From Lachnospiraceae bacterium (lineage in GTDB: Bacteria; Bacillota; Clostridia; Lachnospirales; Lachnospiraceae): a DNA stretch of 64,000 nucleotides. Of this stretch, positions 4,258 to 26,659 are shown piece by piece (position 1 is the first letter of the stretch; every line of letters starts with the position of its first letter). The stretch covers positions 42,942 through 106,941 of the forward strand of contig JAISSU010000023.1 in assembly GCA_031272985.1 (NCBI GenBank). Reading direction: 5' to 3'. Both the position numbers and the translations under genes were made by a program. The notes below the pieces were generated by a model, which saw only the letters and a program-made list of their open reading frames with translations, made no database searches and was not told the origin of the DNA.

Positions 4258-5628
4258 TTATTCCCCCAAGAGCTTTCGTTTTTCCCATCTGCCGCTTAAG
4301 AAATATACGCAGCCTATGATTAGCGGAGCTAAACGGGCAAGAGAATTCCCCCAGAAGAAGCCCACTATTCCCATATCAAATACGTAAGCCAGGACGAATG
4401 AAATACTTATCCTTAAGACGACTCCATCCAGCATACCCGAAATAAAATTCAGCCGTGCGTTTCCGCATCCTGTCACCAAACCATTGAAAGTGCCCATAAA
4501 AGCAGAAAAGATAAATGTGAAAATTGTGATTCGCATAAAGACCATCCCGAGTTCCAAAACTTCAGGATCCTTCGTAAACACCCCAAACATCTGCTTTGGA
4601 ATGAAAATAGCCAACAAGCAATTTATGACCGCCATTATTGCCCCCGCTTTGAGACAGGTATAAACTGTTTTCCGCACGCGTTCAAAATTCCTCGCACCGA
4701 AGTTTTGTGCTATTATCGCGCCGCCACCCTGATTTATCCCGAGCATTATTACATTGACCAATCGTACCAGTTTATCACCGATGCTATTTGTAGCGGATGC
4801 GACGACGCCATACTGGTTGATAAAAGATTTACAAAACAGTTGCGAAAGCTGTATACATACACCGCTTAGGGCCATTGGAATTCCCTGTTTCAGCATAACA
4901 AAAAGAGACACTCTGTCAATCTTTAATAAGCTGCGATTAAATTCTATATTTAGTTGTCTGCGCTTTATGTACATATAGACCACAGATGCCACAAAACAGG
5001 CAATTTGGGCAATCACCGTAGCTATAGCGGTTCCGGCGGCACCAAGGTGTAGGACAACGACCATCAGAAGATCCATAAAAATATTCGAAGTGGCGGCTAT
5101 GATAATAAAAATCAGAGGCATTTTCGATTCACCCATTCCACGAAGAATACAGCATATGGCATTGTATTCAAACACAAAAGGCAATCCAATCGAGACGATC
5201 ATCATATATTGGTAGGATGGTGCAAAAGCCTCTGCCGGCGTATTTAGGAGTTTCAAAAATGCACGGCAGCCAATAAGTGATACCACCATGAAAAAGACTG
5301 AAAGTATCAGCATAAATGAGATGATTGTCCGAGTAGCATTTTTTAGCTTAACATTGTTCTTCGCTCCGACTAATTGAGCAATAAATATCTGCCCTGCGCC
5401 TGCGAAAGCTAAGCTCATAAATGATAATAGATCAGGTATATCTCCGCCTGTGGCGACACCGACCGTGCCCGAAGAGTCCCCAAAATGACCTATGATCATC
5501 AAATCAACCGCGCCATATAACTGCTGAATCAAATGTGTCAGCAGCAAAGGCGCGGCGTAAATGACAAGATTTTTGACTATACTGCCATCCGTGAGGTCAA
5601 GTCCCACCCGCGTTTTTTTATCAGACAT
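4258..5628 (-). CDS. MATE family efflux transporter
   Basis: A 456-residue integral membrane protein with about twelve hydrophobic segments in two related halves, as in MATE cation/drug antiporters. Features are the N-terminal half start DGSIVKNLVIYAAPLLLTHL, the region around GGDIPDLLSFMSLAFAGAGQ, and the second half beginning near KQGIPMALSG with GGGAIIAQNFGARN. Length fits the family (about 450). It follows the first OYE-type reductase by 76 nt on the same strand with no clear terminator between, so it may be the last gene of the transporter/reductase operon and export aromatic products or toxic intermediates. That role is inference. Confidence 0.9.
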   Translation of the reverse strand: MSDKKTRVGLDLTDGSIVKNLVIYAAPLLLTHLIQQLYGAVDLMIIGHFGDSSGTVGVATGGDIPDLLSFMSLAFAGAGQIFIAQLVGAKNNVKLKNATRTIISFMLILSVFFMVVSLIGCRAFLKLLNTPAEAFAPSYQYMMIVSIGLPFVFEYNAICCILRGMGESKMPLIFIIIAATSNIFMDLLMVVVLHLGAAGTAIATVIAQIACFVASVVYMYIKRRQLNIEFNRSLLKIDRVSLFVMLKQGIPMALSGVCIQLSQLFCKSFINQYGVVASATNSIGDKLVRLVNVIMLGINQGGGAIIAQNFGARNFERVRKTVYTCLKAGAIMAVINCLLAIFIPKQMFGVFTKDPEVLELGMVFMRITIFTFIFSAFMGTFNGLVTGCGNARLNFISGMLDGVVLRISISFVLAYVFDMGIVGFFWGNSLARLAPLIIGCVYFLSGRWEKRKLLGE

Positions 5629-5704
5629 TTATTACCCCTTCTCAAGAAGAACTCCAAAACTTTCTCAAAAATCGCTTTAACTTCGCGGTCTTAGGAAGTT
5701 TGGT

Positions 5705-7852
5705 TCAAAGCAAGCAAACCTTTCCGAAGCCACGTCTGTTCCCCTCAAGGAGGCTCGTACAATTCTTATCCGCGTCGCCTATTATGTAGAACTCATCTGT
5801 GCAGTCAGCGTATTTTAATGCTTCTTCGGCGCAAGGAGTATAACCGCCGGAGACTATTACCGTGTCAGCGTCAATAGTTGTTTCTACACCCTCCTTCAAA
5901 TAGGTAACCTGAGTGGGGGTAACTTTCGTGGCAGTCGCATGGTAAATCGGTTTCAGGTTTTCATATTTTGTCCAAGCACCACCTGTCCCTCCATAGCCCA
6001 ATTCTTCGTTAATGACCTGAAATGACATATGTGGACCGTGCATACGAAATTCGCCTTTCATAAGCACTTCCTGACGGGTAATTATAATAACATCCTTTCC
6101 TAAGGAAGCCAGATACATCGCAGTTTCAGAAGCCACACTGCCTCCGCCGACAATGACGACTTTTTCACCCGGTTCTACATTTCCCAGATATACATCTTCA
6201 TCCAGCCATACGCCCTCTTGGTCTGCGCCCTCTATCGGGGGGCGCTTCTCACGTGAGCCCGTGGCTGCCAGCAATGCGTCAAAACCCTCTTTAGCAATCG
6301 AGAGCGGATCAGCCTCGGTATTTAGGCGTATATCTGTGACACCCCTTCTTGAAAGTTCATCAATCAGCCAATCTAAATATCGCTTCATTGGCCACTGCGC
6401 AGGGTAAAGGCCGGCGTAGTAGGCAGCTTTTCCGCCGAGCTTGCCATCCTTTTCAAAGATAGTAACGCTATGACCGCGCTCAGCAGCAAAGCAGGCAGTG
6501 CGAAGACCCACAGGGCCGCCTCCAATTATTGCGACTTTTTTAGGTTTGCCGGGTGGCTTTATTATTGCGGGTAGTCGATGGTGCATTGCGTCCTTCGGAT
6601 TAACCGAGCAGCCGCAGACACCTTCGTGAAATCCGTGGCATTTATTGCAACGCAGACAAGGCGTGAACTCTTCTTGTCCATTGCTTCGTAATTTAGCCAT
6701 AAAGTCAGGTTCAGCTCTAAATGTCCTCCCTGTGCTAATCAAATCAACAATCCCTTCGGAGAGAATCTGCTCCATTTCATCGGGATCATTAAAGCCGCCG
6801 TTAACGGCAATCGTTCCTTTGTAACCTGCTTGTCTTAAGTGCTTGGCATAGCCCAGACTTGGATGCTCATTTAAGAGGCTGTTGTAGCCAAGACACTGAT
6901 ATCCGGTGCCACCAAGTTCACGAATCTCAACAATGTCGCTTACATCCTCAACCATCTTCATAAAGCGGATAAACTCCTCTTCGGTATAGCCTGCAGGCAA
7001 TTGCCCGTCATGACCGTGTGGAGATTCACCCATCATTACTACCTCAATGAGGAAATCAGGTCCGCAATACTCTTTTATTTTCGTGAAAAGTTCCAGCTGA
7101 AACCGTCCGCGTCCTTCTATTTCACCGCCATATTCATCATCGCGTATGTTAGTCGATGAATCAAGTCCCCAGCGGTCTGCACGGATACTAATGCCGTCCC
7201 AGCCTGCTTTTTGATAACTGCGGCAAAGCTCCACGAGATCATCAATCGCATCTTGAATCTGTTCTTTGGTCGCAGCGTTTGACTTCATCTGCTCCATTGA
7301 AAGCCCTTTGCCTTTAGACAACCATGAAACTACCTGCGGTATATATTCGACAATCTCATTTAATGTAGCAAGCCTGTCGTCACCATCCGGAGCCGGAAAT
7401 AGTGTTTTAGGATCTCCGCCTTCCAAAGATACCCCTTTGGGGAACGATGCTCCTACTTTTACGAGCACTTTGGTACCATACATATGCGCGACTGCCGCTA
7501 CCTGACCCACGTAATTATATGTTCTGGGTATGCTGTAATCATATACGGGATTACTGCCGACCCTTTCTCTTCTGTAGTCATATTCCAATCCATATGTTAG
7601 TTTCGCCTTCGCGACTGCTTCATTCGCACCGCGTGGGGCGGCTCCTCCCCCGTGACTTCCGAAATGACCGAAGCTCATTAAGGACGCTCCGCTCCTTGCA
7701 AAGATTGCCGTATCTTCTATCAGTGATTCCGGCGGAAAATTCTCAGGTCCTGACATAAAGGACTGCTGTGCGTTTGGATAAGCAATTCGATTTTTCAGGA
7801 TTGTTCCGTTCTTCAGTACACAGGGTTTAAAAACATTTTTGTATTTTGACAT
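5705..7852 (-). CDS. Old Yellow Enzyme-type NADH:flavin oxidoreductase with Fe-S and FAD/NAD domains (copy 1)
   Basis: A 715-residue reductase of the 2,4-dienoyl-CoA reductase / enoate reductase architecture. An N-terminal FMN TIM barrel spans about 1-380 (start YKNVFKPCVLKNGTILKNR). A cysteine cluster for a 4Fe-4S centre follows (PCLRCNKC, then GVCGCSVNP). Next is a Rossmann FAD domain (VAIIGGGPVGLRTACFAAE) and a second dinucleotide motif (VVIVGGGSVASETAMYLAS). Such enzymes reduce activated C=C bonds with NAD(P)H. Known relatives act on dienoyl-CoA, bile-acid enones and flavonoids; the E. ramulus flavanone-cleaving reductase is recalled as one. Copy 2 at 23285 is similar along its whole length. 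It lies 22 nt after the Opp ATPase gene, linking substrate import with reduction. The substrate cannot be read from the sequence. Confidence 0.88.
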   Translation of the reverse strand: MSKYKNVFKPCVLKNGTILKNRIAYPNAQQSFMSGPENFPPESLIEDTAIFARSGASLMSFGHFGSHGGGAAPRGANEAVAKAKLTYGLEYDYRRERVGSNPVYDYSIPRTYNYVGQVAAVAHMYGTKVLVKVGASFPKGVSLEGGDPKTLFPAPDGDDRLATLNEIVEYIPQVVSWLSKGKGLSMEQMKSNAATKEQIQDAIDDLVELCRSYQKAGWDGISIRADRWGLDSSTNIRDDEYGGEIEGRGRFQLELFTKIKEYCGPDFLIEVVMMGESPHGHDGQLPAGYTEEEFIRFMKMVEDVSDIVEIRELGGTGYQCLGYNSLLNEHPSLGYAKHLRQAGYKGTIAVNGGFNDPDEMEQILSEGIVDLISTGRTFRAEPDFMAKLRSNGQEEFTPCLRCNKCHGFHEGVCGCSVNPKDAMHHRLPAIIKPPGKPKKVAIIGGGPVGLRTACFAAERGHSVTIFEKDGKLGGKAAYYAGLYPAQWPMKRYLDWLIDELSRRGVTDIRLNTEADPLSIAKEGFDALLAATGSREKRPPIEGADQEGVWLDEDVYLGNVEPGEKVVIVGGGSVASETAMYLASLGKDVIIITRQEVLMKGEFRMHGPHMSFQVINEELGYGGTGGAWTKYENLKPIYHATATKVTPTQVTYLKEGVETTIDADTVIVSGGYTPCAEEALKYADCTDEFYIIGDADKNCTSLLEGNRRGFGKVCLL

Positions 7853-7874
7853 AGATTACTCACCTCGTAAAGTA

Positions 7875-8834
7875 TTAAACTAGTTGATTAATTTCATTAA
7901 CACGACTGCATAAACATAAGTGCCCCGGCGTTATTTCTTCGAGGGTTTGCGGCTCTTCGCAAGCTGTGGTCGCGTATACGCAACGATCCTTGAACCTGCA
8001 ACCGGGCTTGGGATTTATGGGGGATGTCAGCTCACCGCTTAACATTACACGTTGGCTCGGATTGTGGATATCTATGGAAGGAACCGCACTCATCAGAGCT
8101 TTAGTGTATGGGTGAAGCTGATTCAAAAAGAGTTCCTCAGTAGGACTCATCTCTACGACCTGCCCCAAATACATGACGCAGATACTGTTTGATATATGCC
8201 TGACGACAGACAAGTCATGGGTTACAAACATCAAAGTCAAGCTGCTTTTCTCCTGAATATCCATTAGGAGATTAAGAATTTGAGCTTGTATCGAAACATC
8301 AAGTGCGGAGACAGGTTCGTCGCAGACTATAAACTCAGGATCAAGCGACAAAGCGCGGGCGATGCCTATACGCTGCCTGCATCCACCATCCAGCTCGTGA
8401 GGATAAGATTGTGCAAGTCGCTCCTCAATACCCGTCAGTTCCATTAGCTCATCAACCCTATCGTCCAATTCGCCTTTTTTGTAACGTCTGGAGAGGATAA
8501 GGGGCTCACGAATGATTTCGTCTACAGTCATTCGCGGGTTTAGGGAGGAGTACGGATCTTGAAAAACTATCTGAGCTTTTTCCCTGAATTTACGAAGCTG
8601 TCTCTTGTTTAAGTCAGTTACATCCTCTCCGTTAAGAAATATCTGGCCATCAGTGCTTTCGTGCAGATGGACAAGGCAAAGACCGAGAGTGGATTTTCCG
8701 CAACCGGATTCTCCAACAACACCTATGGTTTTGCCTCTCTCAATTGATATGGATACATCATCCACCGCATGGAGTACTCCTCCGGGGACGCTGAAGTACT
8801 TCTTTAAATTTTTTGTTTCAATCACAGCGGACAT
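7875..8834 (-). CDS. Opp/Dpp-type ABC transporter ATP-binding protein (OppF-like)
   Basis: A 319-residue ATPase of a peptide/nickel-family importer. Walker A GESGCGKST, signature LDGGCRQR (a degenerate form of LSGGQQQR) and Walker B FIVCDEPVSALD are visible. The C-terminal oligopeptide extension has the cysteine-bearing motif GCRFKDRC. The ATG at 8834 was chosen because AAAGGAGGAGG stands just upstream, next to the stop of the preceding gene; the open frame would allow a start 30 nt earlier. It forms a pair with the OppD-like ATPase. The unusual signature sequence suggests that ATP hydrolysis may depend mainly on one of the two sites. Confidence 0.9.
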   Translation of the reverse strand: MSAVIETKNLKKYFSVPGGVLHAVDDVSISIERGKTIGVVGESGCGKSTLGLCLVHLHESTDGQIFLNGEDVTDLNKRQLRKFREKAQIVFQDPYSSLNPRMTVDEIIREPLILSRRYKKGELDDRVDELMELTGIEERLAQSYPHELDGGCRQRIGIARALSLDPEFIVCDEPVSALDVSIQAQILNLLMDIQEKSSLTLMFVTHDLSVVRHISNSICVMYLGQVVEMSPTEELFLNQLHPYTKALMSAVPSIDIHNPSQRVMLSGELTSPINPKPGCRFKDRCVYATTACEEPQTLEEITPGHLCLCSRVNEINQLV

Positions 8835-8836
8835 GC

Positions 8837-9817
8837 TTAAACCTCCTCCTTTGGCGCGATACAACGGCAGAAATGACCGGATGTAAGCTCCGCATTGGGC
8901 ACTGTAGCCTCACAAGCCTTTGTGGCACGCGGACAACGGAAGCGGAACATGCAACCATTTGGCTCAATACGCGGATCTGGCGGAAGTCCATCAATGGGAT
9001 GCAAACGTTTCTCGCCCATAGCCCACATCGGCAGGGAATGGAACAAACCCACAGTATATGGGTGGGACGCGTGGTCAAAAATGTCTTCCTTTGAGCCACT
9101 TTCTACGATCTGCCCTGCGTATATTACCGCGACAGTATCACAATTTTCCGCTACTATGCCAAGATCGTGCGTGATTAGAATCATGCTTGTTCCCAGCTGA
9201 TTTCGCAAATCGCGCATCGTGTCCAGTACCTGAGCTTGAATGGTGACATCCAGTGCGGTAGTGGGCTCGTCAGCTAAAAGGAGCTTCGGCTTGCAAGCCA
9301 GAGCCATTGCGATGACGACGCGCTGTTTCATACCGCCGGAAAACTGAAATGGATATTCATGAAAACGCTCTTCCATAATCCGTACACTTTGCAGCATATC
9401 AATAGCCATCTTTTCCGCTTCCAATGCAGAGACATCATTATGGAGCCTTATGCCTTCTGCAATCTGATTGCCAATCGTCATAGTAGGATTGAGCGCTGTC
9501 ATTGGATCCTGAAAAATCATTGAGATCTTTGCCCCGCGGATTTTAAGCATCTCATCTTCTCTTACTTTTAACAAATCAGTTCCTTCCAAGAGGATTTCGC
9601 CACTTTTAACCTTTGCCGGTGGGGATAAGAGAACTCGCAGAATAGACTTTGCTATGGTGGTCTTTCCCGCACCGGTCTCGCCGACGAGACCTAAAGTCTT
9701 TCCTTTTTCAAGCTCAAAAGAGACACCGTTGACCGCGTGTATTATTTCACCGCCGGAAGTATATTCGACCACAAGATCCCGTACTGACAGCAAATTATCA
9801 TTCTTTTCGGACATCAT
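8837..9817 (-). CDS. Opp/Dpp-type ABC transporter ATP-binding protein (OppD-like)
   Basis: A 326-residue ATPase with Walker A GETGAGKTT, signature FSGGMKQR, Walker B LLLADEPTTALD and the H-loop LITHDLG. The C-terminal oligopeptide domain contains GCMFRFRC. It partners the OppF-like subunit and the two permeases. It starts at the first of two ATGs, five bases after GAGG. The stop is followed within three bases by the OppF-like start, so the two are translationally coupled. Confidence 0.92.
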   Translation of the reverse strand: MMSEKNDNLLSVRDLVVEYTSGGEIIHAVNGVSFELEKGKTLGLVGETGAGKTTIAKSILRVLLSPPAKVKSGEILLEGTDLLKVREDEMLKIRGAKISMIFQDPMTALNPTMTIGNQIAEGIRLHNDVSALEAEKMAIDMLQSVRIMEERFHEYPFQFSGGMKQRVVIAMALACKPKLLLADEPTTALDVTIQAQVLDTMRDLRNQLGTSMILITHDLGIVAENCDTVAVIYAGQIVESGSKEDIFDHASHPYTVGLFHSLPMWAMGEKRLHPIDGLPPDPRIEPNGCMFRFRCPRATKACEATVPNAELTSGHFCRCIAPKEEV

Positions 9818-9829
9818 AAAAACCTCGTA

Positions 9830-10735
9830 TCATTTTCTCAGCTTGGGATCTATGGCGTCACGAAGCCCATCACCAAGCAGGTTGAAGAAGAACACACAAA
9901 TAAATATCACAAGTCCCGGGAAGATGACTAAGTGCGGATAATGCGTGATATAGTCACGCCCGGCAGAGAGCATTGCGCCCCATTCGGGAGCGGGCGGTTG
10001 GATTCCGAGCCCTATAACACTAAGTCCGGCTGCCACCATAATCATATTGCCGATACCTGTAGCCATGCCGATAATCATAACGGATATAATATTTGGAAAA
10101 ACATGCCTAAAAAGGATGCGCGGCGTCGAACAATTAATCGCCTGAGCAGCTCTTAGATACTCCTCCTGTCGCACAGTCAGCACCAGTCCCCGACACATTC
10201 GTACACCGCCTGCTATGCCTCCGAGACCCAAGGCCACAATAGTACCTATGAAGTTCTTCGTACCGAAAGTCATGGCTACAATAATAGAAATCATGGTCGC
10301 GGGAATGGACATGATGACGTCCATTGTCCTCATGATAGCATTGTCCACTTTACCTCCTGCGTATCCTGCTATCATGCCTAAAATAAGGGCGGCAAACTGA
10401 CCGACCACGGAGGCTAAAAAGCCCACAGCCAGGGAATACCTACCTCCGTAAATCAAGCGGCTTAGAATATCGCGTCCCAGTGCGTCAGTACCAAACGGAT
10501 GCGCTAAGCTTGGCGCTGCGTTTATGAATTTCAAATCCATTTCCGTAGGAGAAAAGGGCGCAATAAGCGGGGCGCATACGGAGATAAGCACGAGTGCCAA
10601 TATACCTATTAGTCCCACCATGCCCAGTTTGTCATGAAACAGGCGCACTACTGCCTGCGACCACATACCTTGTTTCTTTCTTTTTTTCCTCACCTGATTT
10701 TTTTCCGGGAGGATCGTTTTTGAATTAGGCGACAT
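9830..10735 (-). CDS. Opp/Dpp-type ABC transporter permease (OppC-like)
   Basis: A 301-residue inner-membrane permease with six hydrophobic segments and a cytoplasmic N-terminal tail rich in Lys/Arg. Family landmarks are HPFGTDALGRDILSRLIYGG, typical of OppC/DppC, and the EAA loop around RAAQAINCSTPRILFRHVFPN. It overlaps the OppB-like gene by 11 nt and precedes the ATPases by 12 nt. It should form the membrane channel with the OppB-like subunit. Confidence 0.93.
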   Translation of the reverse strand: MSPNSKTILPEKNQVRKKRKKQGMWSQAVVRLFHDKLGMVGLIGILALVLISVCAPLIAPFSPTEMDLKFINAAPSLAHPFGTDALGRDILSRLIYGGRYSLAVGFLASVVGQFAALILGMIAGYAGGKVDNAIMRTMDVIMSIPATMISIIVAMTFGTKNFIGTIVALGLGGIAGGVRMCRGLVLTVRQEEYLRAAQAINCSTPRILFRHVFPNIISVMIIGMATGIGNMIMVAAGLSVIGLGIQPPAPEWGAMLSAGRDYITHYPHLVIFPGLVIFICVFFFNLLGDGLRDAIDPKLRK

Positions 10736-11693
10736 TTTTGATCTTCCCTTTCTTTGTACTTTGTTTTACATACTGAGCCTTTATTCGAGGATCCACGTAA
10801 CCATACGAGAGATCCACCAGAAGCATTAAGATAGCCGTAAACGCGGCGATAACTATTACGCACCCGCGTATAACGGGATAATCTCTGGATGCTATGGCGT
10901 CAGATAAGTAAAGACCCACACCGGGAAATGAGAATATTTTTTCCATTACTATTGTACCGCCTATGCAACGCGTGAAGCTGGTGCCTACATTCGTGAGCAC
11001 AGGAATCAGAGCATTCGGCAACATATGCTGATAAATAACCTTGCGCTCCATTACTCCTTTTGCTCTGGCGGTAGTGATATAGTCAGCGTGTACTACCTCA
11101 AGCACGCATGAACGCGTATATCTGGCAATTCCGCCGATACCTGCAAGAGCACCCGACAAAATCGGCAGCACATAATTCTTCCATGAGCCTATACCGAATG
11201 AAGGCAGTATATTCAAACGAAGGGAAAAGAATATAATAAACAAAAGCGCCACCCAAAACTCCGGAACCGACATGAAAACCATGGCAAATGATATAACACC
11301 TTTGTCCTGCCACTTGCGATGGTGTGTAGCAGCGTTAACTCCCATAGGTATGCCAACGAGAGAGGTAAGAACAATACTCAAAAATCCCAAGAGAAAAGTG
11401 CGCGGTATTCTCTCCAGCATGCCGCCGAACACAGACGTATTTCTGAACCAAGAAGTCCCCATGTCGAACTTAATAAAGGTATTGTACATAAAGGAACCCA
11501 ACTGTACAAGGAAGGGTCTGTCTATTCCGAGCTGGTGTCTTACATCCGCCAGATCTGCCGCCGTCGCCTCGGGACCAAGTATAATCTTAGCCGGATCACC
11601 CGGCACAAAATACATGACAGTAAAGATTAAGATGGCGGCGGCGATGATGACGAATATAGTCATCAGAAGCCTTTGCAGAACATATCTTAACAT
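10725..11693 (-). CDS. Opp/Dpp-type ABC transporter permease (OppB-like)
   Basis: A 322-residue permease beginning MLRYVLQRLLM, the usual OppB/DppB start. The PGDPAKIILG periplasmic segment and the EAA loop near ARAKGVMERKVIYQHMLPNA are present. The ATG at 11693 is preferred over the one at 11705 because TGAGG lies seven bases upstream of it and the protein then begins as relatives do. The gene follows the binding-protein gene after a 149-nt gap holding a long-loop hairpin. Confidence 0.92.
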   Translation of the reverse strand: MLRYVLQRLLMTIFVIIAAAILIFTVMYFVPGDPAKIILGPEATAADLADVRHQLGIDRPFLVQLGSFMYNTFIKFDMGTSWFRNTSVFGGMLERIPRTFLLGFLSIVLTSLVGIPMGVNAATHHRKWQDKGVISFAMVFMSVPEFWVALLFIIFFSLRLNILPSFGIGSWKNYVLPILSGALAGIGGIARYTRSCVLEVVHADYITTARAKGVMERKVIYQHMLPNALIPVLTNVGTSFTRCIGGTIVMEKIFSFPGVGLYLSDAIASRDYPVIRGCVIVIAAFTAILMLLVDLSYGYVDPRIKAQYVKQSTKKGKIKNVA

Positions 11694-11750
11694 GATTAAC
11701 CTCATTTACATTTGACTTAACGATAGCGATATGGATTAGAAAAGTGCAGC

Positions 11751-11803
11751 AAGCCGGGCTATAACCAATTCAACATTAGAATTACTATTACAAGACCCGG
11801 CTT
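11751..11803 (-). other. Intercistronic hairpin between binding-protein and permease genes
   Basis: Perfect 8-bp arms AAGCCGGG (11751-11758) and CCCGGCTT (11796-11803) enclose a 37-nt loop. No T-run follows on the minus strand, so it is more likely an mRNA-stabilising or partial attenuation structure than a full terminator. Such structures often keep binding-protein mRNA more abundant than permease mRNA. A second small hairpin, CTCGT/ACGAG, lies at 11820-11833. Confidence 0.55.
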
Positions 11804-11842
11804 ACTTCGTCTTAAACTCCTCGTGGTAACGAGAAATTTATG

Positions 11843-13528: not shown

Positions 13529-13569
13529 AACTTACCTCCTTATTTGACCTTCCTATTTGTTACAATTTC

Positions 13570-13598: not shown

Positions 13599-13654
13599 AT
13601 GCATTAATTCGACTAATTATTTCCCGTTTCGCCATAATTAATTGTAAAAATTGT

Positions 13655-13683: not shown

Positions 13684-13727
13684 AATACTCGGATATCGGC
13701 TATGTAAGTTTAACTTAGGAGAAAACC

Positions 13728-14618
13728 TTGATAAATTACTTAAGCTTAGGTGAATTTCTTACAGTTTCAAAAATCCTGGAAAATGGTTACGGTAGTTTTG
13801 TTCAGGCGGCGGATGAACTTAATATAGACCCATCTACTCTCACGAAGCATTTAAAGAGCTTAGAATCAGCGTTAGGTGCACCACTGTTTGACAGGACGAC
13901 CAGACGCGTTTCCTTAAATGACTTTGGTCACTTTTTTCTGCCCTTGGCAATAGAACTGTATAATAACTACGAGGAGAGCTTGAACTTAGTGAATAGCTTT
14001 ATTCTTAATCAACCTCCGATTCTAAAGTTTGGTACGGTTATACCACTAATTGCCGGCGGTCCGTATATGAACGCAATGAATGAATGCGTCGAAAAACATC
14101 CCGGGTGCAATATACAGTTTTGCGAAGGAGCATGTTGGTCATTAAAAGATATGCTCAGGGCTAAAAGTCTTGAATTCATCTTAGCTTACAAAGAAAAGAG
14201 CGACCATCATGAATTTTATTCGCACACTTTGGACGACGACCGTTTAGTCGCCATTGTCGAACATAATCATCGTTTCTACAACGAGAACTGTATATTGATT
14301 GACATGTTAAAAGGTGAAAATATCGTCGCCGGACTAGTCAGTTCTTTTGTGGGAAATCTCATAAATCATGCTTGCCAAACGGCAGGTTTCGACCCGCAGA
14401 TACGTTATTCGGACAATTCCAACATCAATTTGGCAAACATAGTCAATCATGGCGGAGGAATCGGGCTTATGATGGAGTCTTCAGCGCGTTATTTTTGCAA
14501 TGCGAATATGAGAGTCATACCGATTGAACCGGCGATTACACTTCAACTATGTTATCTATACCTAAAGGAACATAAACCTTCGCCTTTAGCGGCTTCATTT
14601 TTGGCCGCTTTACAATAA
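13728..14618 (+). CDS. LysR family transcriptional regulator (first of tandem pair)
   Basis: A 296-residue protein. The N-terminal winged helix-turn-helix (about 1-62) has the family pattern FVQAADELNIDPSTLTKHL then LGAPLFDRTTRRVSLNDFG. The C-terminal effector-binding domain has the end motif HGGGIGLM. The start is TTG at 13728, six bases after TTAGGAGA; no ATG is suitable. It is divergent from the importer operon and 9 nt ahead of a second LysR gene. It likely senses an aromatic or ester-derived inducer of the adjacent operon. Its specific ligand is unknown. Confidence 0.9.
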   Translation: MINYLSLGEFLTVSKILENGYGSFVQAADELNIDPSTLTKHLKSLESALGAPLFDRTTRRVSLNDFGHFFLPLAIELYNNYEESLNLVNSFILNQPPILKFGTVIPLIAGGPYMNAMNECVEKHPGCNIQFCEGACWSLKDMLRAKSLEFILAYKEKSDHHEFYSHTLDDDRLVAIVEHNHRFYNENCILIDMLKGENIVAGLVSSFVGNLINHACQTAGFDPQIRYSDNSNINLANIVNHGGGIGLMMESSARYFCNANMRVIPIEPAITLQLCYLYLKEHKPSPLAASFLAALQ

Positions 14619-15503: not shown

Positions 15504-15505
15504 TA

Positions 15506-18584: not shown

Positions 18585-18617
18585 GAGTTTTTATCCTCCG
18601 ATTGTGAATTAAACAGA

Positions 18618-19553
18618 TTACTTATTTGCCAAATATTGTTTGGCTGTTTTAATAAAGCATTGATCTGCCTTACTTAGGCGTTTTCCCTTACGATGCGACA
18701 ATGCAATTACGACAGGATCCAGATTTGTATTAATGGGAAAGAGTCGGACGCGGCTCGGTTCGCCTATATCACTCTTGAAACGCCTGCGGCAATATTCTCT
18801 CGTAGCTACCAATGCCCCCGAACCCAATATACACATATTGTAATTCAGTTCACCATTGTCTGACACAAAGGCCACCTTTGGCTCGAAACCCGCATCTTCA
18901 AAGATCATTTTCTGTCCAAGTACTACTTGTTCCAATTTATTGCGTAATAGCACAAAGGGCATATCGCGCAACAAACCAAGATCCCTTTTTTCAAGAAGCT
19001 CGGCCTCTATGCGAGGCCATTCATCGCCGTAAACGCGTTCGGCCAACTCTGTGACAAAGGCTACCACGTATGAATCTTTATCAAAAACCGTTATATGCTC
19101 AAGATCAGTTGCCAAAGGAAGGACACTGAAAAAGAGGTCAAAATCAGCGGAGTACTTTGCCGCGTCTATTGGATTTATTCGTATAATCTTAACTTCAAGA
19201 TTAGGATATTGTGTAAAAAACTCTGCCAATAGTCCCGGCAAAAATGGTGGTGTCTCAGTAGAAGGGATGGCAAGAGTTATCTTTGATTTGTCAATTTGCG
19301 CGATTTGAGCTATTTCATCAAGCATTTCATTGTAGGACACAAGCAATTGTGTCGCAGTCCGTGCAAACACCTTACCGGCCAATGTAAGCGAGGTCGGCCG
19401 ACTGCGAATCACCAAACGCACACCGAGTTCTTCCTCCATCTTATGAAGCTGCTCTGACAGTGACTGCTGGGACACATGCAGACGATCGGCGGCCTTTGAA
19501 ATATTACCTTCTTCAGCAATAGTCAGGAAATATTTGAGATTATTAAAATTCAC
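18618..19553 (-). CDS. LysR family transcriptional regulator (third in island)
   Basis: A 311-residue LysR protein with helix-turn-helix KAADRLHVSQQSLSEQLHKM followed by LGVRLVIRSRPTSLTLAGKV, and an effector-binding domain. GTG at 19553 is used, eight bases after GAGG. It is embedded in the same strand and order as the catabolic genes, between the phloretin-hydrolase-like and tannase-like genes, rather than divergent. It may control the tannase-like and esterase genes downstream or the whole operon. Confidence 0.9.
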   Translation of the reverse strand: MNFNNLKYFLTIAEEGNISKAADRLHVSQQSLSEQLHKMEEELGVRLVIRSRPTSLTLAGKVFARTATQLLVSYNEMLDEIAQIAQIDKSKITLAIPSTETPPFLPGLLAEFFTQYPNLEVKIIRINPIDAAKYSADFDLFFSVLPLATDLEHITVFDKDSYVVAFVTELAERVYGDEWPRIEAELLEKRDLGLLRDMPFVLLRNKLEQVVLGQKMIFEDAGFEPKVAFVSDNGELNYNMCILGSGALVATREYCRRRFKSDIGEPSRVRLFPINTNLDPVVIALSHRKGKRLSKADQCFIKTAKQYLANK

Positions 19554-19666
19554 CGTTGTTTCCTCACAATGTTCACGTATTCTCTTTTGCCGGCTTCATC
19601 TTCTCATATTTCGCAAAAATTCTCAAGTGACGCGGGGGCAGTTTTTCGAGTCGGAAAACCAAACTG

Positions 19667-20506
19667 TTAATCCGCATCTATAGGCTGATCATGGTATTCA
19701 TCGTACAACTCATTAAGGAAATCAAACAAGTGAATCCACTCTATTAAGGTATGGTACCCAACCTTCCTTAGGTAGGCTTCGTCACATTTAGTTCTGGGAT
19801 CCCTTTGGGCTTTGCCGTCCGGTCCGGGGCGATATCCTATCCACTCTACAGAGCGCCTTTCAAAACCGCCATCGAGATTCGGGCGTATCTGTCCAAGCGT
19901 CAAATGTGAACCGGGCTCGTCGAATGACTCCCAGTCAGAGAGTTCATTTACATTCGCGCCGGAAGCCTTTATTTGCTCAATTTTCTCATTAGTTAGTCCA
20001 TAATTTCTCAAATTGAATTTATGGCGGATAGTGTTATATTTCCTGTCTCCCTCACCCATGTCCAGACTCTCTGTTGTGAAAATCCCCTCTGAAGGATCTT
20101 TCCAATTAACAAAGTAATGATCCCAATGATCAGCAGGGTTCCAAATCTTATACCTAAGATTTCCACGCCCGTACTTTGCGCTCTTAGGATAAACATTTAA
20201 CCAGTTAAGATACCAGAACAGTTTCTTGGGTTCGATAGATTCAGGGATCTTTGTGTAGGTACATATGTAACCGGAACCATCAGGGAACATGCAATAGCCG
20301 TTTTCCACCGCCTCATACTCACCGCAGGGCTTCAACCAATCAACAAAGCGATCCGCAGGCACAGCCAATGTGTAATCCATAGGCTTTCCCAGAACTATGC
20401 TTTTAAGTTCTTCATCCAAGTCTCTCATAGGATAATCATAATAATATTTCGACAAAGGCATTGCCTTTTCTTCAGGAAAAAGCTCAGGTAAGGTATTATA
20501 AGCCAT
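19667..20506 (-). CDS. Phloretin hydrolase / DAPG hydrolase-like zinc C-C hydrolase
   Basis: A 279-residue soluble protein resembling the PhlG/Phy family. These zinc enzymes cut the C-C bond between an acyl chain and a phloroglucinol-type ring; phloretin gives phloroglucinol plus hydroxyphenylpropionate. Family-like parts are MFPDGSGYICTYTKIP (73-88) and LRYKIWNPADHWDHYF (117-132), where His127 fits the first zinc ligand. A HTLIEW segment provides His252 and Glu256 four residues apart, as in the recalled PhlG ligands His270/Glu274. Length is within the family range. The ATG follows AAGGAGG. It sits among tannase-like and OYE-type genes, which fits a flavonoid pathway. Family likely; substrate inferred. 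Confidence 0.68.
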   Translation of the reverse strand: MAYNTLPELFPEEKAMPLSKYYYDYPMRDLDEELKSIVLGKPMDYTLAVPADRFVDWLKPCGEYEAVENGYCMFPDGSGYICTYTKIPESIEPKKLFWYLNWLNVYPKSAKYGRGNLRYKIWNPADHWDHYFVNWKDPSEGIFTTESLDMGEGDRKYNTIRHKFNLRNYGLTNEKIEQIKASGANVNELSDWESFDEPGSHLTLGQIRPNLDGGFERRSVEWIGYRPGPDGKAQRDPRTKCDEAYLRKVGYHTLIEWIHLFDFLNELYDEYHDQPIDAD

Positions 20507-20620
20507 TTCAAGTCCTCCTTATTATTCTGAGCCGTAGGACACCCCCCGACACTCATTGCTCTATTTGATTAATTCTACCCTTAAACCAAATTAATTTCTA
20601 ACATTTTTTCTATTGGTATG

Positions 20621-21925
20621 TTACAAGTTTTTGCCTGCCGACTTTGCCGCCAGTCTTTTTATACTGCTAAAGAGAATGTCAACTGCTTCGGGCATCATGT
20701 GTGAGGCTTTCGCAGAAAATGTAACAACCTGATATCCATCGGCATCCGACATATATGACGATGAGCCGTTGCACTGGGTAATGATAATGGTATCGGTAAA
20801 GCCCTCCTGCGCAAGAACCTTTCTGATTTCCGGACTGTTTTTACTGGATGTTTCGCAACCAATACCGACAATAGCAAGATTTCCTATTGCCGTGACTGAT
20901 AAGGGAATGGGCACCGGCTCAGAAAGCTCATACTCGTCAGGCGATTCGGGCCACTTCGCACCGCGGCCTTCTTTTTTTATCTTGCCGGGCACAAAAATCG
21001 TCTCGGAGACAGTTTTTATTTGTTCTGCATGATAAACTGTTTTGGGTTGCGTTATAGCCGCAAGCGTTGCCTCGCCTAAATCCCTGCCTTGTAGTTCAAC
21101 CAGAACGTAACTTGACTCACCATAGTTCCCGTTTTGCTTTTGACCATTTTCTCCGGTGTAAGTGTAGGCAGCAGTATACTTAGCGTTTTGGTCAGCCGCA
21201 GGAGCCATTGTAAATATGGCGACGGCTTCATGTCCCAATGCCTTCTCTACACTGTCCATCGCAAATCCCGAAAGGTCTCCCGATGCCAACTGACCACCTT
21301 TAGTCATTTTGGCATCAAAGAGTACGGCACTGTGTACGCTGTAATTAAAAAGCACCGCGGCTATCGTACCATCTTCCCTCTCGAAGCTAATCGTATATAC
21401 AGTTTTATCCGAATATCCTTTGAAATTCCTGCCTATGCGCCAAAGTGTCTTCCCCGTTTCGGGATCTATTTGAGGATTATCGCGGCAAATATTAACATCA
21501 CAATATCCCTCTGCATAACGTAAAATAACAGGCTCGGCTTTTGCCATCGCCTCTTTTACTGCCTCAATTAGAGTCTCCCAAGCCAAGAGCTTATATTGCT
21601 CACTTTTTTCCACATCTTCTACGTCCTCCGGCCAATATCCGCCAATAAAGGGTGCTGTGTGAGTGTGGCTAACAGTTATTAAAATATTATCGGTACTAAC
21701 GCCTGCTGCCTTTGATAGTTTTTCAACCCATACAGGATCAATGTCTCCATTCTCCACAGATACCACAAGCAATTCTGAAGGTTCACTTAAGTAAATGACC
21801 CTTACATGCAAATCGTCATGAACACCTGTAAGCCTCCTCGGTCCCCAACTGTGATAAGGGAAGATATTTTCAGGATAAGGGATAACCTTCTTAGCGGTTC
21901 CTATTTTAATATTAAATTGATCCAT
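20621..21925 (-). CDS. Neutral/alkaline ceramidase-like protein, probably not a ceramidase
   Basis: A 434-residue protein with the N-terminal fold motifs of neutral ceramidases: SHTHTAPF (zinc histidines) and FNYSVHSAVL (third histidine), followed by ASGDLSGFAMDSVE. The region that should hold the GDVS nucleophile reads MAPAADQN, so the catalytic serine appears missing. No signal peptide is present, whereas true ceramidases are usually secreted. The ATG at 21925 follows TTAGGAGG. Its place between an alpha/beta-hydrolase and the phloretin-hydrolase-like gene points to another metal-dependent step on an aromatic or ester substrate. Fold call is moderate; function unknown. Confidence 0.55.
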   Translation of the reverse strand: MDQFNIKIGTAKKVIPYPENIFPYHSWGPRRLTGVHDDLHVRVIYLSEPSELLVVSVENGDIDPVWVEKLSKAAGVSTDNILITVSHTHTAPFIGGYWPEDVEDVEKSEQYKLLAWETLIEAVKEAMAKAEPVILRYAEGYCDVNICRDNPQIDPETGKTLWRIGRNFKGYSDKTVYTISFEREDGTIAAVLFNYSVHSAVLFDAKMTKGGQLASGDLSGFAMDSVEKALGHEAVAIFTMAPAADQNAKYTAAYTYTGENGQKQNGNYGESSYVLVELQGRDLGEATLAAITQPKTVYHAEQIKTVSETIFVPGKIKKEGRGAKWPESPDEYELSEPVPIPLSVTAIGNLAIVGIGCETSSKNSPEIRKVLAQEGFTDTIIITQCNGSSSYMSDADGYQVVTFSAKASHMMPEAVDILFSSIKRLAAKSAGKNL

Positions 21926-21934
21926 AAAAACCTC

Positions 21935-23257
21935 CTAATCGTCTTTCTTATTAGAAAACAGCCACTCTCGCAACGACTCTAATTGGTAGCAAAATAACCA
22001 CGTTGCGCGATGGTCTCCGAAAGGCTGCGTTGCTTCTTGCACAGAACCGGCTTTAAACACGGAATACTTTATTTTGTGTCCCTCAGATATGGCTTCCCGC
22101 ACATTCTTGTCTATCGCATCGACGCCTTCTTTGGCGTCCCACGAATAACGCCCCACATCTGCACCGACCTCTTCAAGGTTATTAATCGCCTCGTCCATCG
22201 CACTGAAAGCATGACCATCACCTTGACAGATTAGGAACCAGATATTTTTGTCTTTGAGCGCCGTCATAGTTTTTGGATTCCAGAAACCCGCCACAAGCAG
22301 CGACCCAGCGAATAAATCAGGATAGCGGATGTTGAGTTCACACCCCGACAGATAGCCCATTGACTGTCCCGTATGGTAAATTCTGTTTTTGTCGATACCA
22401 TATTTTTCCACAATAAAGTCAATGAGACGTTTTGCGATTTCCACCTCGTCGGTGGCCGTAAAGTCGTCTTCGACAATCGTGGGCCCCGGAAACTGTGGTG
22501 ACAAGACAAAGCATTCTCTCTTTGCCTGCTCATTAGGGAAAGCCCATATGGTCCCGCCATACCCTTGTGTTAACGCAGTTTTGCAGTCGGGGCCGATTCC
22601 CCACCCATCGGAAATGAAATTAAGAAGAGGAAATTTTTTCTTTCCATCGTAGCCTTTTGGGATATAGAGGTTGTATTTTATTCCTTCGAATTCCCCTTCG
22701 ATGAAGTCATCGACAACAAGGTTAATGGTTTTGGTATTATAAATTAAAGCGCCCGGCTCAATACTCTCGCCGCTCGACGATATAAGCGGGCTAAGTTGCT
22801 CGGTAATAAGCTTTAAAGTTTTCGCGTGAGCTCGGCAGTTCCTGTGATACCCTGTCAGATATATCGTCGGTGCGGCTTCGTCGTCAGGCGAGAGTTCTAT
22901 TACGACAAAGCGACCGCGCTCGGCCGGCGTACTCGTCTTTTCGGGCGCTGTATTGGCATAAATTGCCGTAATGTTTCGCTCGGAATTGACGACGCCACCG
23001 TTTACGGCTGCTGCCGCCTTCGGGTACAGCGCCGTTTCAAATGTGTCAGTTACTGCAAACACGTCCGCTCCAAGGCTTGATCCCTTGATATCCACATCGT
23101 ACTCAATAATGACAGCCGTCGCCTTTTGGCAGTCACAAAACATCTGTGTCAAAGCGATTGAGCGTATGATGTGGCCGTCCCTCTCCTTTGCCGTAAAAAA
23201 CGGTCTCTTCCGATTAACTGTATCACCATGCTCATTCTTGTCATGATTAAACGGCAT
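21935..23257 (-). CDS. Alpha/beta-hydrolase (PHB depolymerase / prolyl-oligopeptidase-like esterase)
   Basis: A 440-residue protein with an N-terminal beta-rich domain (about 1-165) and a C-terminal hydrolase domain. The hydrolase has YNLYIPKGYDGKKKFPLLNF, the nucleophile elbow YHTGQSMGYLSG and the DLFAGSLLVAGF strand. A late FGDHRATW may carry the catalytic His. It lacks a signal peptide. The open frame begins at 23278, but AAAGGAGT precedes the ATG at 23257 (MPFNHDKNEHG), which is the better start. It lies between the second OYE-type reductase (27 nt) and the ceramidase-like gene (9 nt). An esterase acting on a small aromatic ester is the simplest reading. Confidence 0.75.
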   Translation of the reverse strand: MPFNHDKNEHGDTVNRKRPFFTAKERDGHIIRSIALTQMFCDCQKATAVIIEYDVDIKGSSLGADVFAVTDTFETALYPKAAAAVNGGVVNSERNITAIYANTAPEKTSTPAERGRFVVIELSPDDEAAPTIYLTGYHRNCRAHAKTLKLITEQLSPLISSSGESIEPGALIYNTKTINLVVDDFIEGEFEGIKYNLYIPKGYDGKKKFPLLNFISDGWGIGPDCKTALTQGYGGTIWAFPNEQAKRECFVLSPQFPGPTIVEDDFTATDEVEIAKRLIDFIVEKYGIDKNRIYHTGQSMGYLSGCELNIRYPDLFAGSLLVAGFWNPKTMTALKDKNIWFLICQGDGHAFSAMDEAINNLEEVGADVGRYSWDAKEGVDAIDKNVREAISEGHKIKYSVFKAGSVQEATQPFGDHRATWLFCYQLESLREWLFSNKKDD

Positions 23258-23284
23258 ATAAATTACTCCTTTCCCCAAACTCCC

Positions 23285-25423
23285 TTACAGCAAGCTTACC
23301 CTGCCATAAGCACGCCTGTTACCTTCCATTAGACTGGTGCAATTCTTATCCGCATCACCTGCTATGTAAAACTCTTTGGTGCAATCCGCATAGCGCAGTG
23401 CCTCCTTTGCATTGGGCGCAAAGCCTCCTGATACTATCACTGTATCGGCATTTAAAGTGATCTCCCCTCCGTCCTTTTCATATGTGACGGAAGTAGGGGT
23501 GATATTTTTTGTCTGCGCATTGTATATCGGCTTTAGGTTTTCATATTTCGTCCAGGCTCCGCCTATGCCGCCATAACCCAATTCCGGCTCAATAATCTCG
23601 AAAGCCATATGCGGACCGCGAATACGAAACTCACCTTTCATCAAAACTTCCTGCCTGGTCAGTATTGTAACATCCTTGCCGAGTGATGCAATATACATAG
23701 CTGTCTCGGTAGCGACGCTGCCTCCGCCTACTATTATGACACTTTGACCGGGATTGACATTTCCGAAATAGACATCTTCATCAAGCCATACTCCTTTGGT
23801 ATCGGCACCGGGAATCGGAGGAGCTATTTCATGAGAACCTGTACAGGCAATAACCGCGTCAAATCCCTCTTTTTCTATATCTTCGGGGTTCGGTTCCGTG
23901 CCAAGCCTGATATCCTTTACTCCTCTTCGCTTAAGTTCATCTACGAGCCAACTTAGATATCTGGCCATCGGCCATTTCTGAGGGTACAAAGCCGCATAAT
24001 ATCCGACTTTACCTCCGAGCTTATTATCTTTTTCAAATATCGTAACGGTATGTCCACGCTCAGCGGCAAAGCAAGCAGCTCTAAGGCCTATGGGGCCCGC
24101 GCCTATGATCGCCACTTTCTTTTGCTTTATGGGTGCCGGAATGATCGATGGCAACCGGTGCCCCATGGCATCTTTAGGATTAACCGAACACCCGCAGACA
24201 CCCCTTTCAGGCCCATGACACTTATTGCAACGAAGGCATGGCATAGGTATCTCTTCACCATCCATACGGAGCTTTTCGAGAAATTTCGGTTCGGCTCTAA
24301 AGGGTCGACCGGCGCTTATCAAATCGACGATCCCCTCACCGATAATCTTCTCCATATCATCAGGATCGTGGAAGCCTCCATTGACTGCGATGGTACCCTT
24401 AAATCCTGCCTCTCGCAGGTGTTTAGCGTATTCGAGGCAAGGGTGTATGGTCAGAGTACTGTTATAGCCATGATTCTGATAACCGGCTCCCGAGCGCTCA
24501 CGTATCTCTATTATGTCTATATAAGGCTCAACCATCTTAACAAAACGGATGAATTCGTCCTCGGAATAGCCATGTGGTATCTGCCCATCGTGACCATAAG
24601 GTGCGTCACCCGGCATTACGAGCTCTATAAGGAAGTCCTCGCCTAATACTTCTTTTATCTTTTGGAAGGTCTCAAGGAGGAGACGACCGCGGTTTTCCAC
24701 TTCTCCGCCGTATTCATCCTCACGAAGGTTTGTGGCGGCATCGATAAAACGATCGCCGCGAAGACTTACACCGTCCCAGCCGTACTGCTTGTAATTCGCA
24801 AGCATTGATACTAAGTCATCAATTGACTGCTTTATCTGTTCCTTAGTGGCGATCCTTGCTTTCATTTGTTCAAGGGACATTCCACTTCCCTTAACCGCCC
24901 AAGGAAAGATGTGCGGGAAAATGTCCGCAACTTCGCGCCATATTGCGAGTCTATCATCACCCACAGGGGCAGGGAACAAAGTTTTTGCATCGCCTCCGTC
25001 ATAGGTCACGCCCTTTGGGAATGAGTTTGCCATCTTTACCAGAATCTTTGTACCAAACATATGCGCCACGGCAGCTATTTGTCCCACCATATTAAAAGTC
25101 CTCGCATCTGAATAATCAAAGAAGGGGGCCTGCTGAGGCATTTCTTTTTTATAACCGTCAGGTGCCGGCACCAATGCGTTCTTTTTCTTTTCATCCTCAG
25201 TATGAACCGCCGCTCCGCCGCCCAAACTCCCGAAATGTCCGAAATTCATAAGCGAGGCTCCGCTTCGACAAAAGTCGGCGAGGTCTTCTATCATTGCCTC
25301 TATCGGAGAGGCTTGTGCCCCTGTCACATAAGACTGCTGAGCATTAGGATAAATGATCCTGTTTTTTAGAATTGTGCCATTTGAGAGCACACAAGGTTTA
25401 AATATGTTCTTATATTCAGCCAT
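23285..25423 (-). CDS. Old Yellow Enzyme-type NADH:flavin oxidoreductase with Fe-S and FAD/NAD domains (copy 2)
   Basis: A 712-residue paralogue of the protein at 5705, alike from end to end. The FMN barrel begins AEYKNIFKPCVLSNGTILKN. The Fe-S cysteines are in PCLRCNKC and GVCGCSVNP, the FAD motif is VAIIGAGPIGLRAACFAAE, and the second dinucleotide motif is VIIVGGGSVATETAMYIAS. Both copies end with a near-identical tail (DADKNCTSL). The ATG at 25423 follows TAGGAGG; the frame opens slightly earlier at a GTG that overlaps the ribosome-binding site. The barrel differs most around residues 60-110, so the copies may act on different substrates or successive steps. Reduction of a flavonoid or enoate C=C is the working guess. 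Confidence 0.88.
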   Translation of the reverse strand: MAEYKNIFKPCVLSNGTILKNRIIYPNAQQSYVTGAQASPIEAMIEDLADFCRSGASLMNFGHFGSLGGGAAVHTEDEKKKNALVPAPDGYKKEMPQQAPFFDYSDARTFNMVGQIAAVAHMFGTKILVKMANSFPKGVTYDGGDAKTLFPAPVGDDRLAIWREVADIFPHIFPWAVKGSGMSLEQMKARIATKEQIKQSIDDLVSMLANYKQYGWDGVSLRGDRFIDAATNLREDEYGGEVENRGRLLLETFQKIKEVLGEDFLIELVMPGDAPYGHDGQIPHGYSEDEFIRFVKMVEPYIDIIEIRERSGAGYQNHGYNSTLTIHPCLEYAKHLREAGFKGTIAVNGGFHDPDDMEKIIGEGIVDLISAGRPFRAEPKFLEKLRMDGEEIPMPCLRCNKCHGPERGVCGCSVNPKDAMGHRLPSIIPAPIKQKKVAIIGAGPIGLRAACFAAERGHTVTIFEKDNKLGGKVGYYAALYPQKWPMARYLSWLVDELKRRGVKDIRLGTEPNPEDIEKEGFDAVIACTGSHEIAPPIPGADTKGVWLDEDVYFGNVNPGQSVIIVGGGSVATETAMYIASLGKDVTILTRQEVLMKGEFRIRGPHMAFEIIEPELGYGGIGGAWTKYENLKPIYNAQTKNITPTSVTYEKDGGEITLNADTVIVSGGFAPNAKEALRYADCTKEFYIAGDADKNCTSLMEGNRRAYGRVSLL

Positions 25424-25435
25424 TATTCTCACCTC

Positions 25436-26659
25436 CTATGCTTCGGTTACATAAATGCGAATCGCGGACGGCGATACAGCATCATACTTTTTACCTGTAT
25501 AGGTTAGAAGTCCATCCTCTCCTACCGCAAATACCGTGATATCTCCACTGGTGAGATTCCCTGAAAGGAGAAACTTTCCATCCGGAGACAGGCAGATGCC
25601 ACGCGGCATAGTACCTTCACAGTCAATATTTTGCGCAAGTTTGACTCGACCCTTGTCGTCGACTTTAAGAGTTACCAACAGATTATCACCGCCCTCAACC
25701 GTGCAATAGAGAGCTTTTCCATTCGGGTGCGCCAAGATATCCTGAGCGCCCATCGGCCGGGCTTTAATGGAGTATTCCTTACCCCTGTATTCATCGGTTA
25801 GCAATTCTTCTTTTTGCAACAACGCAATTTTGCCTGTTTCATCGTCATATGAAAACACATGAACTTCGCACTTACGCTCGTTATTGGTATATAGTACGGG
25901 CAATGTGGGATGGAAAGAGGCGTAACGCGGGAACAACCCCAAGTCATCCTGATAGACATCGCATAGTTCTATTTTCTCATTTTCCTGATCTACACGAAAA
26001 GTGTAAACGCGATCCATGCCCTTGTCGGGTACTGCAAATATATTGCCCGAAGGGCTCGGCATAACGGCATGCTGACGAGAAAGCACTCTGGTAAGCTGTA
26101 TATGCCCGGTAACAGGGTCGACCAACTTTTGTGAATCGGGAGCAAGACCTTGATTGCTGTGGGTAATATATACGTCCTTTATTGCGTCCAAACTGCCGTC
26201 GTCTTTCAATCCCACAAGCAGGAGTCCCGCGTCGTCCATAAGAACCTTGTTGCCCCAAGAACCATCATCGTTTTTCACGACCTTTGTGACATTGAAGGGA
26301 TCAACATGGCTTGATACCAGCACATGTTTTCTGGTTTTGTCGGTAACGACATAGCAGGGCTCAGGGCAAAGTGAATCAATCCTGCTGATTTGTGTTAGTT
26401 TTCCGGTCTCGGGATCAATCGCAAACGCGAGAACATAGCCGCCTCCACCGAGCTCACCCACACGATTTCCAACCTCGTCTACGCAATAAAGCACAGGTTT
26501 GTCCGGGTGCAGCCATATCTGGCCTGCTGCCACCTCCGGCTTTATTGTTTCAATCAGTTCCAAACTACCATCTTCAGGATCAAATACATAGACGCTTATT
26601 CCCTTATCCGCGGGATGAAAATTCCAATTACCTACATAAGCATACATTTTTTGGGCCAT
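25436..26659 (-). CDS. Beta-propeller lactonase family protein (6-phosphogluconolactonase / carboxy-cis,cis-muconate cyclase type)
   Basis: A 407-residue protein with repeated propeller blades typical of the YbhE/Pgl lactonase family. Repeats include GNWNFHPADKGISVYVFD at the start, PSGNIFAVPDKGMDRVYTF, LAHPNGKALYCTVEGGDN and LSPDGKFLLSGNLTSGDI. The family contains 6-phosphogluconolactonases and enzymes acting on aromatic-pathway lactones. No pentose phosphate gene is near, and it heads the operon with the OYE-type reductase and esterases, so an aromatic-derived lactone is the likelier substrate. The ATG at 26659 follows GGAGG. A perfect 10-bp inverted repeat lies about 45 bp upstream. Fold secure; substrate unknown. 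Confidence 0.85.
   Translation of the reverse strand: MAQKMYAYVGNWNFHPADKGISVYVFDPEDGSLELIETIKPEVAAGQIWLHPDKPVLYCVDEVGNRVGELGGGGYVLAFAIDPETGKLTQISRIDSLCPEPCYVVTDKTRKHVLVSSHVDPFNVTKVVKNDDGSWGNKVLMDDAGLLLVGLKDDGSLDAIKDVYITHSNQGLAPDSQKLVDPVTGHIQLTRVLSRQHAVMPSPSGNIFAVPDKGMDRVYTFRVDQENEKIELCDVYQDDLGLFPRYASFHPTLPVLYTNNERKCEVHVFSYDDETGKIALLQKEELLTDEYRGKEYSIKARPMGAQDILAHPNGKALYCTVEGGDNLLVTLKVDDKGRVKLAQNIDCEGTMPRGICLSPDGKFLLSGNLTSGDITVFAVGEDGLLTYTGKKYDAVSPSAIRIYVTEA

Follow-up and report, generated by a model that had tools for sequence, protein, structure and literature searches.

Subtype-B tannases span about 470-570 residues (PMC8958541) and have no signal peptide, and the roles of the catalytic-triad and gallate-binding residues are described for the L. 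plantarum tannase (PMC4233993). Phloretin hydrolase (Phy) and 2,4-diacetylphloroglucinol (DAPG) hydrolase (PhlG) are known members of the PF18089 family. In Eubacterium ramulus and Flavonifractor plautii, the flavonoid enzymes Flr, Fcr, CHI and Phy mostly co-occur (PMC8398226), and TAL, the last step of the C. scatologenes phloroglucinol route (PGR-DPGC-TfD-TAL), belongs to the BKACE family (PMC10470551).

Here, we analysed a stretch of 64,000 nt (hereafter the window; JAISSU010000023.1, positions 42,942-106,941, forward strand) from a Lachnospiraceae genome of 2.0 Mb in 31 contigs, which is 91% complete and the sole genome of its genus in our comparison set. The region under study, 4258..26659 (22 kb), had been put forward in a preliminary description as a candidate plant-polyphenol (flavonoid/gallate ester) degradation island, read after the gut flavonoid route. 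We give an even chance to another reading, namely that it is an import-strip-export module acting on plant phenolics with galloyl or other acyl groups, a substrate class suggested by the tannase residues and the PhlG fold. The basis for a module lies in the protein families, residues and folds, in the lack of signal peptides by hydropathy and in conserved linkage.

Gene content and organisation of the region

Between 4258 and 26659, the genes form two runs on the minus strand, with two LysR genes on the plus strand. All previously reported open reading frames are present at their positions, as follows (scores in bits, each against the cut-off of its model):

25436..26659, minus strand: beta-propeller lactonase-family protein, first of operon A (PF10282, 179.1 against 21.7)
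23285..25432, minus strand: OYE1, FMN/4Fe-4S/FAD reductase of 715 aa, no named subfamily
21935..23278, minus strand: esterase with Ig-like N-terminal domain (EstA_Ig_like), PHB-depolymerase-like (PF18435, 71.7 against 26.7)
20621..21925, minus strand: ceramidase-like hydrolase (PF04734, 30.2 against 32.1, just below the cut-off)
19667..20506, minus strand: PHL, PhlG/phloretin-hydrolase-fold protein of a divergent clade (PF18089, 56.9 against 22.7)
18618..19553, minus strand: LysR regulator within operon A (family match; kin in relative loci)
16857..18584, minus strand: divergent subtype-B tannase, 575 aa (NF041556, 361.3 against 300; triad and gallate binders)
15506..16726, minus strand: feruloyl-esterase-like esterase (PF00756; NF041944, 133, far below 1200)
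14628..15503, plus strand: LysR regulator (family match)
13728..14618, plus strand: LysR regulator (family match)
11843..13528, minus strand: Opp-type substrate-binding lipoprotein (family-5), first of operon B (family match; lipobox-like LFASC)
10725..11705, minus strand: OppB-type permease (family match)
9830..10735, minus strand: OppC-type permease (family match)
8837..9817, minus strand: OppD-type ATPase (family match)
7875..8864, minus strand: OppF-type ATPase (family match)
5705..7852, minus strand: OYE2, paralog of OYE1 with 67% identity, 715 aa (family match)
4258..5628, minus strand: MATE exporter (passes TIGR00797, 202.9 against 147.4)

Run A thus reads lactonase-family protein, OYE1, Ig-esterase, ceramidase-like hydrolase, PHL, LysR, tannase and esterase, and run B binding lipoprotein, OppB, OppC, OppD, OppF, OYE2 and MATE. 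At the start of run A, gaps of 3, 6 and 9 bp separate the lactonase, OYE1, Ig-esterase and ceramidase-like genes. Together with the overlaps and short gaps of run B (OppB-C-D-F-OYE2: -11, 12, -28 and 22 bp), this spacing points to two minus-strand operons, in agreement with the preliminary description. Profile scores also bear out the families it had named (tannase-like, PhlG/Phy-like, two OYE, Opp, MATE, three LysR, esterases, lactonase), including the two on which it had staked its reading, PhlG/Phy for 19667 and tannase for 16857; the ceramidase-like gene at 20621 had not been singled out in its list. At 0.42-0.48 per 2 kb, the G+C content of the region is in line with that of the window, so we regard the region as a gene cluster rather than a compositional island. 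Large parts of the gene combination recur in other genomes, which places it beyond chance.

Elsewhere in the window, three successive MsbA-like ABC exporters lie directly upstream of the island on the same strand (27009-32525), and two ChW-repeat proteins, one with an amidase_3 and one with a beta-lactamase2 domain, are encoded at 1632-3800 and 34384-36366.

None of the island hydrolases and reductases has a hydrophobic N-terminus, as judged by hydropathy only, and the 11843 binding protein has a hydrophobic N-terminus with the lipobox-like LFASC, as a lipoprotein would; an external substrate would therefore have to be imported. The binding protein reached none of the named oligopeptide, dipeptide or nickel binding-protein models of NCBIfam, the best being GsiB (71.9 against 594).

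The tannase and its importer-linked relatives

The 16857 protein is a tannase-family enzyme that keeps all known gallate-binding residues and, from these, is predicted to be a galloyl esterase. Indeed, in a HMMER alignment, S186, D524 and H558 correspond to the triad S163, D419 and H451 of the L. plantarum tannase, and K427, E442 and D526 to its gallate binders K343, E357 and D421. The protein shares with L. plantarum TanB, C. butyricum CbTan2 and F. nucleatum TanB the same model, the triad, the gallate Lys/Glu/Asp and the absence of a signal peptide (its N-terminus is not hydrophobic, by hydropathy only). It differs from these three by a longer middle insert and by its length of 575 residues, slightly above the usual range, and it has a PhlG-fold hydrolase, an Opp importer and OYE as neighbours.

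A second tannase of the same genome (contig C7) scores higher, with 608 bits, and is 33% identical to the window protein. At the locus of this canonical tannase B (L174:5751-10770), 27 bp separate the tannase from a sugar-type ABC importer ahead of it (binding protein, ATPase and permease), and a LysR gene is located upstream on the opposite strand. The tannase of locus L038 is 65% identical to the window protein, passes NF041556 (345.7) and stands in the order Ig-esterase, ceramidase-like hydrolase, PHL, tannase, MATE. Tannase-B matches were found in 36 of 63 PF18089-bearing genomes against 17 of 199 sampled genomes of the family (own genome excluded), a comparison confounded by lineage and habitat and with H. 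hathewayi in both sets.

We then inspected 18 tannase loci that we picked ourselves from the high scorers, 12 from the PF18089-bearing set and six from the family sample. An Opp operon is present at four of them (L179, L189, L191 and L194), and neither importer type at 13. In L179, from Hungatella hathewayi DSM 13479, the binding-protein gene lies 15 bp before the tannase; in L191, the tannase is flanked by two Opp operons; and L194 holds Opp, ceramidase-like, tannase, MBL-fold and feruloyl-esterase-like genes, two more genes and MATE. The gallate-binding Asp is replaced by His in the L191 and L194 tannases and by Ala in that of L183; the other aligned rows, including the window, keep Asp, and the other five residues of the triad and gallate-binding set are conserved in every row.

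In L189 (8063-17599), one run on one strand comprises an Opp operon, a UbiD-type decarboxylase, a UbiX-type prenyltransferase, a small protein and tannase B. In L187, the tannase is likewise accompanied by genes of the UbiD and UbiX types; a sugar-type importer follows about 4 kb further on. With their best models, the UbiD-type proteins from L189 and L187 score 451.5 and 448.5, below the cut-off of 650, while the UbiX-type protein passes TIGR00421. Both loci thus resemble the tannase-gallate decarboxylase operons (tanB with lpd or UbiD-UbiX), in L189 behind an Opp operon, whereas the window island has no decarboxylase gene within it.

A divergent PF18089 clade beside two OYE reductases

PHL has the fold of 5xe5 and 3hwp, that is of Phy and PhlG, in a VIA-align list that is informative only on the families it contains. 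The metal ligands of PF18089 hydrolases are presumably His, Glu, His and Glu; the corresponding residues, H127, E146, H252 and E256, are present in PHL and in each of the eight Phy-like proteins from this bacterial family that we termed classical by their high PF18089 score and not by name. PHL is only 23-26% identical to these eight proteins, and in the tree they form a separate clade (100/100) while the window protein falls inside a PHL clade (100/96). PHL had no NCBIfam match, the PhlG equivalog NF047887 included; its relative in locus L063 scores 24.8 against 600 with that model. PHL also differs from Phy and PhlG in its linkage to an Opp importer and MATE, and a second PF18089 paralog is often present as well. 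That PHL is the phloretin hydrolase of the gut flavonoid pathway is not supported, as it falls apart from the classical proteins in the tree.

Four residues, H130, E193, H201 and E221, are invariant in the PHL and bPHL proteins and absent from all eight classical Phy-like proteins, which argues for a different pocket. Promiscuity is a trait of the lactonase, ceramidase-like and Ig-esterase families. Together with this pocket and with a structural comparison in which OYE1 ties with amine dehydrogenases, it would suit a non-phenolic metabolite (for instance an acylated peptide or an ester of polyketide or terpenoid type), for which the tannase and PhlG folds would have been recruited. We consider this improbable, since the window tannase retains all three gallate-binding residues and tannases are enriched, albeit in a confounded comparison, in genomes with these loci.

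The same genome encodes a second PF18089 protein, lacking E146, on contig 28 (L012). The cassette around it (L012:265-19813) carries an aldo/keto reductase, a PhzA/B-like protein, a binding protein with an Opp importer, an MBL-fold protein, the PF18089 protein itself, an FGGY kinase, two MATE and three related esterase-like proteins. In Hungatella hathewayi DSM 13479, a single run (L063:8479-15205) contains MATE, PHL, a GPH symporter, an SDR, bPHL and an alpha/beta-hydrolase-like protein of no Pfam family; paired PF18089 genes are therefore available in a cultured strain. Faecalicatena orotica (L034) is another cultured carrier. Judging by their record titles, most PHL/bPHL loci come from herbivore-gut or other animal-gut assemblies. 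Judged by titles and opening lines, we found no literature on the PHL/bPHL clades or on gut relatives of DAPG hydrolase, and no usable structure paper on the PhlG active site.

OYE1 and OYE2 have the full three-domain architecture, with the CxxCxxC...C motif, in common with 2-naphthoyl-CoA reductase, 2,4-dienoyl-CoA reductase, BaiCD, bilirubin reductase and Fcr, the last set alongside by description only. They differ from the named families in that the models match only from about residue 190, leaving the N-terminal part unmatched, and all far under cut-off (NCBIfam scores of OYE1: BaiCD 190.3 against 825, bilirubin reductase 225.7 against 750, mycofactocin OYE 199.2 against 793). Close relatives are rare: none was found in 396 other family genomes at E 1e-150, and matches occur in two of 199 family genomes at E 1e-60. 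Among the 63 PF18089-bearing genomes, searched in two rounds at 1e-60 and 1e-120 that covered all but 11 of the 74 loci, close copies (at least 56%) exist in two (G210 and G441) and copies of 44-48% in G452.

In G441, OYE1 has a counterpart of 79% identity in the order lactonase-OYE1-MATE-SBP-OppBCDF, with bPHL, MATE and LysR genes adjoining; the lactonase next to it is a near-ortholog of that of the window (717 bits). One contig of G210 combines an Opp operon and a BKACE gene with two OYE (59 and 56%), two MATE and an alpha/beta-hydrolase-like gene; on another, PHL adjoins the lactonase. In G452, several window-type OYE share one reductase-rich 80-kb contig (contig 45, L152-L154) with regulators and transporters.

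These data bear on the flavonoid pathway known from E. ramulus and F. plautii. In this reading, the tannase would first remove galloyl groups, the OYEs would take the part of Fcr and open the flavanone C-ring, and PHL would take that of Phy and cleave the dihydrochalcone. The adjacency of OYE and PF18089 members to each other and to a tannase, the Phy fold of PHL and the mostly joint occurrence of Flr, Fcr, CHI and Phy in those species speak for it. However, PHL belongs to another clade than the classical proteins, and the OYE that does lie beside a classical Phy-like gene (L136) reaches only 137 bits against OYE2 and, unlike the window OYEs, spans the BaiCD model end to end, with a BaiCD-like N-terminal half. 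Moreover, no close OYE occurs in 64 relative PHL/bPHL loci, and BKACE (PF05853) has no match in the genome, an absence that is soft at 91% completeness. We thus lowered this reading from the main one to an unlikely one; what had been called a more complete pathway is likewise not borne out, as the genome gave no match to the family of the terminal phloroglucinol enzyme. What stands of the preliminary interpretation is the conserved linkage of an importer and an exporter with a tannase that has the gallate residues, a PhlG/Phy-fold hydrolase and OYEs. The broad family PF04199, to which DPGC belongs, is represented by one gene, beside an SDR gene on contig C30.

Conserved linkage and a proposed module

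A PF18089 profile scan of named genomes gave 74 loci, of which 64, with a protein of at least 200 bits to PHL or to the contig-28 PF18089 protein of the same genome as PHL, form the main set. The ten loci below 200 bits (L098-L107) were left out of the main count; MATE occurs in two of these and Opp in none. Neighbours were counted over all open reading frames within the flanks retrieved per locus. MATE, a common family that we counted at a loose threshold of 40 bits, is present in 43 of the 64 loci, three or more Opp subunits in 29, SDR in 34, alpha/beta-hydrolase-like proteins in 29, PHL and bPHL together in 32 and a LysR of the 18618 type (at least 150 bits) in 15. Lactonase (13), ceramidase-like (12) and Ig-esterase (8) genes are less frequent, the lactonase gene being within 140 bp of PHL or bPHL in eight of its 13 loci, on the opposite strand in one. 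The SDR of these cassettes was considered as a phloroglucinol reductase and set aside, its best PDB relatives being FabG-like. With a tannase in one locus and a close OYE in none, these two look like lineage-specific add-ons and not parts of the conserved core; for OYE, the absence from the 396 genomes (E 1e-150) likewise led us to reject a core role.

In the 37 loci of at least 15 kb, Opp is present in 28, MATE in 30 and both in 24. Around eight classical Phy-like genes of the same family (loci of 13-20 kb), Opp and lactonase were found in none and MATE in two; Fisher tests were applied to the locus comparisons, with these few controls (n=8).

PhlG itself degrades the antibiotic DAPG. This, and the presence of MATE beside the hydrolase in most relative loci, would be coherent with detoxification, in which toxic acylphloroglucinols or tannin pieces are hydrolysed and exported and the Opp importer serves something else. 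Yet the importer, unneeded for pure detoxification, is linked as tightly as the exporter in the long loci, and the enzymes are many for a single poison, which leaves this explanation little probability.

For the import-strip-export module, we can propose the following steps. The binding lipoprotein and OppBCDF would import a phenolic ester or glycoside ester, whose galloyl or cinnamoyl groups the tannase and the other esterases would then take off in the cytosol. Reduction of the phenolic core may fall to OYE1 and OYE2, and the opening of a lactone to the lactonase-like protein. PHL, with a metal on H127, E146, H252 and E256, would split an acyl chain from a phloroglucinol-like ring by hydrolysing the C-C bond that joins them. 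MATE would export the phenolic remnant, and the LysR proteins would sense the substrate. The cell would retain the released acyl, sugar or electron-sink value; the ring would not be mineralised, as the search for the final enzyme of the known phloroglucinol route gave no match, which points to partial use and export rather than full breakdown in this 91%-complete genome.

Several observations count against this module. Opp families usually carry peptides; neither importer type is present at most of the hand-picked tannase loci; the gallate-binding Asp is replaced in three tannases, two of them from Opp-bearing loci; and tannase and close OYE are nearly or wholly missing from the relative loci. 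The confounded tannase rate, the 40-bit MATE threshold, the eight controls and the genome completeness weigh in the same direction.

We advance a wider proposal more tentatively, as possible rather than probable: Opp-family ABC importers would be the uptake system of anaerobic Lachnospiraceae for galloylated and other acylated polyphenols, and PHL/bPHL would be new import-coupled C-C hydrolases that, with a re-built pocket (H130, E193, H201, E221), act on the stripped acylphenol before MATE export.

According to PMC8958541, it is not known how tannins or their galloyl esters pass the membrane in anaerobes whose tannases are intracellular, and, judged by titles and opening lines, we found no literature on a link between tannase and importer or on this cluster. 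The operons joining an Opp importer to an intracellular tannase, in the window and at four other tannase loci including that of the cultured H. hathewayi DSM 13479, provide a candidate importer that is testable with one binding protein and one assay. Furthermore, the PHL/bPHL clades would extend what is known of C-C bond hydrolysis in the gut.
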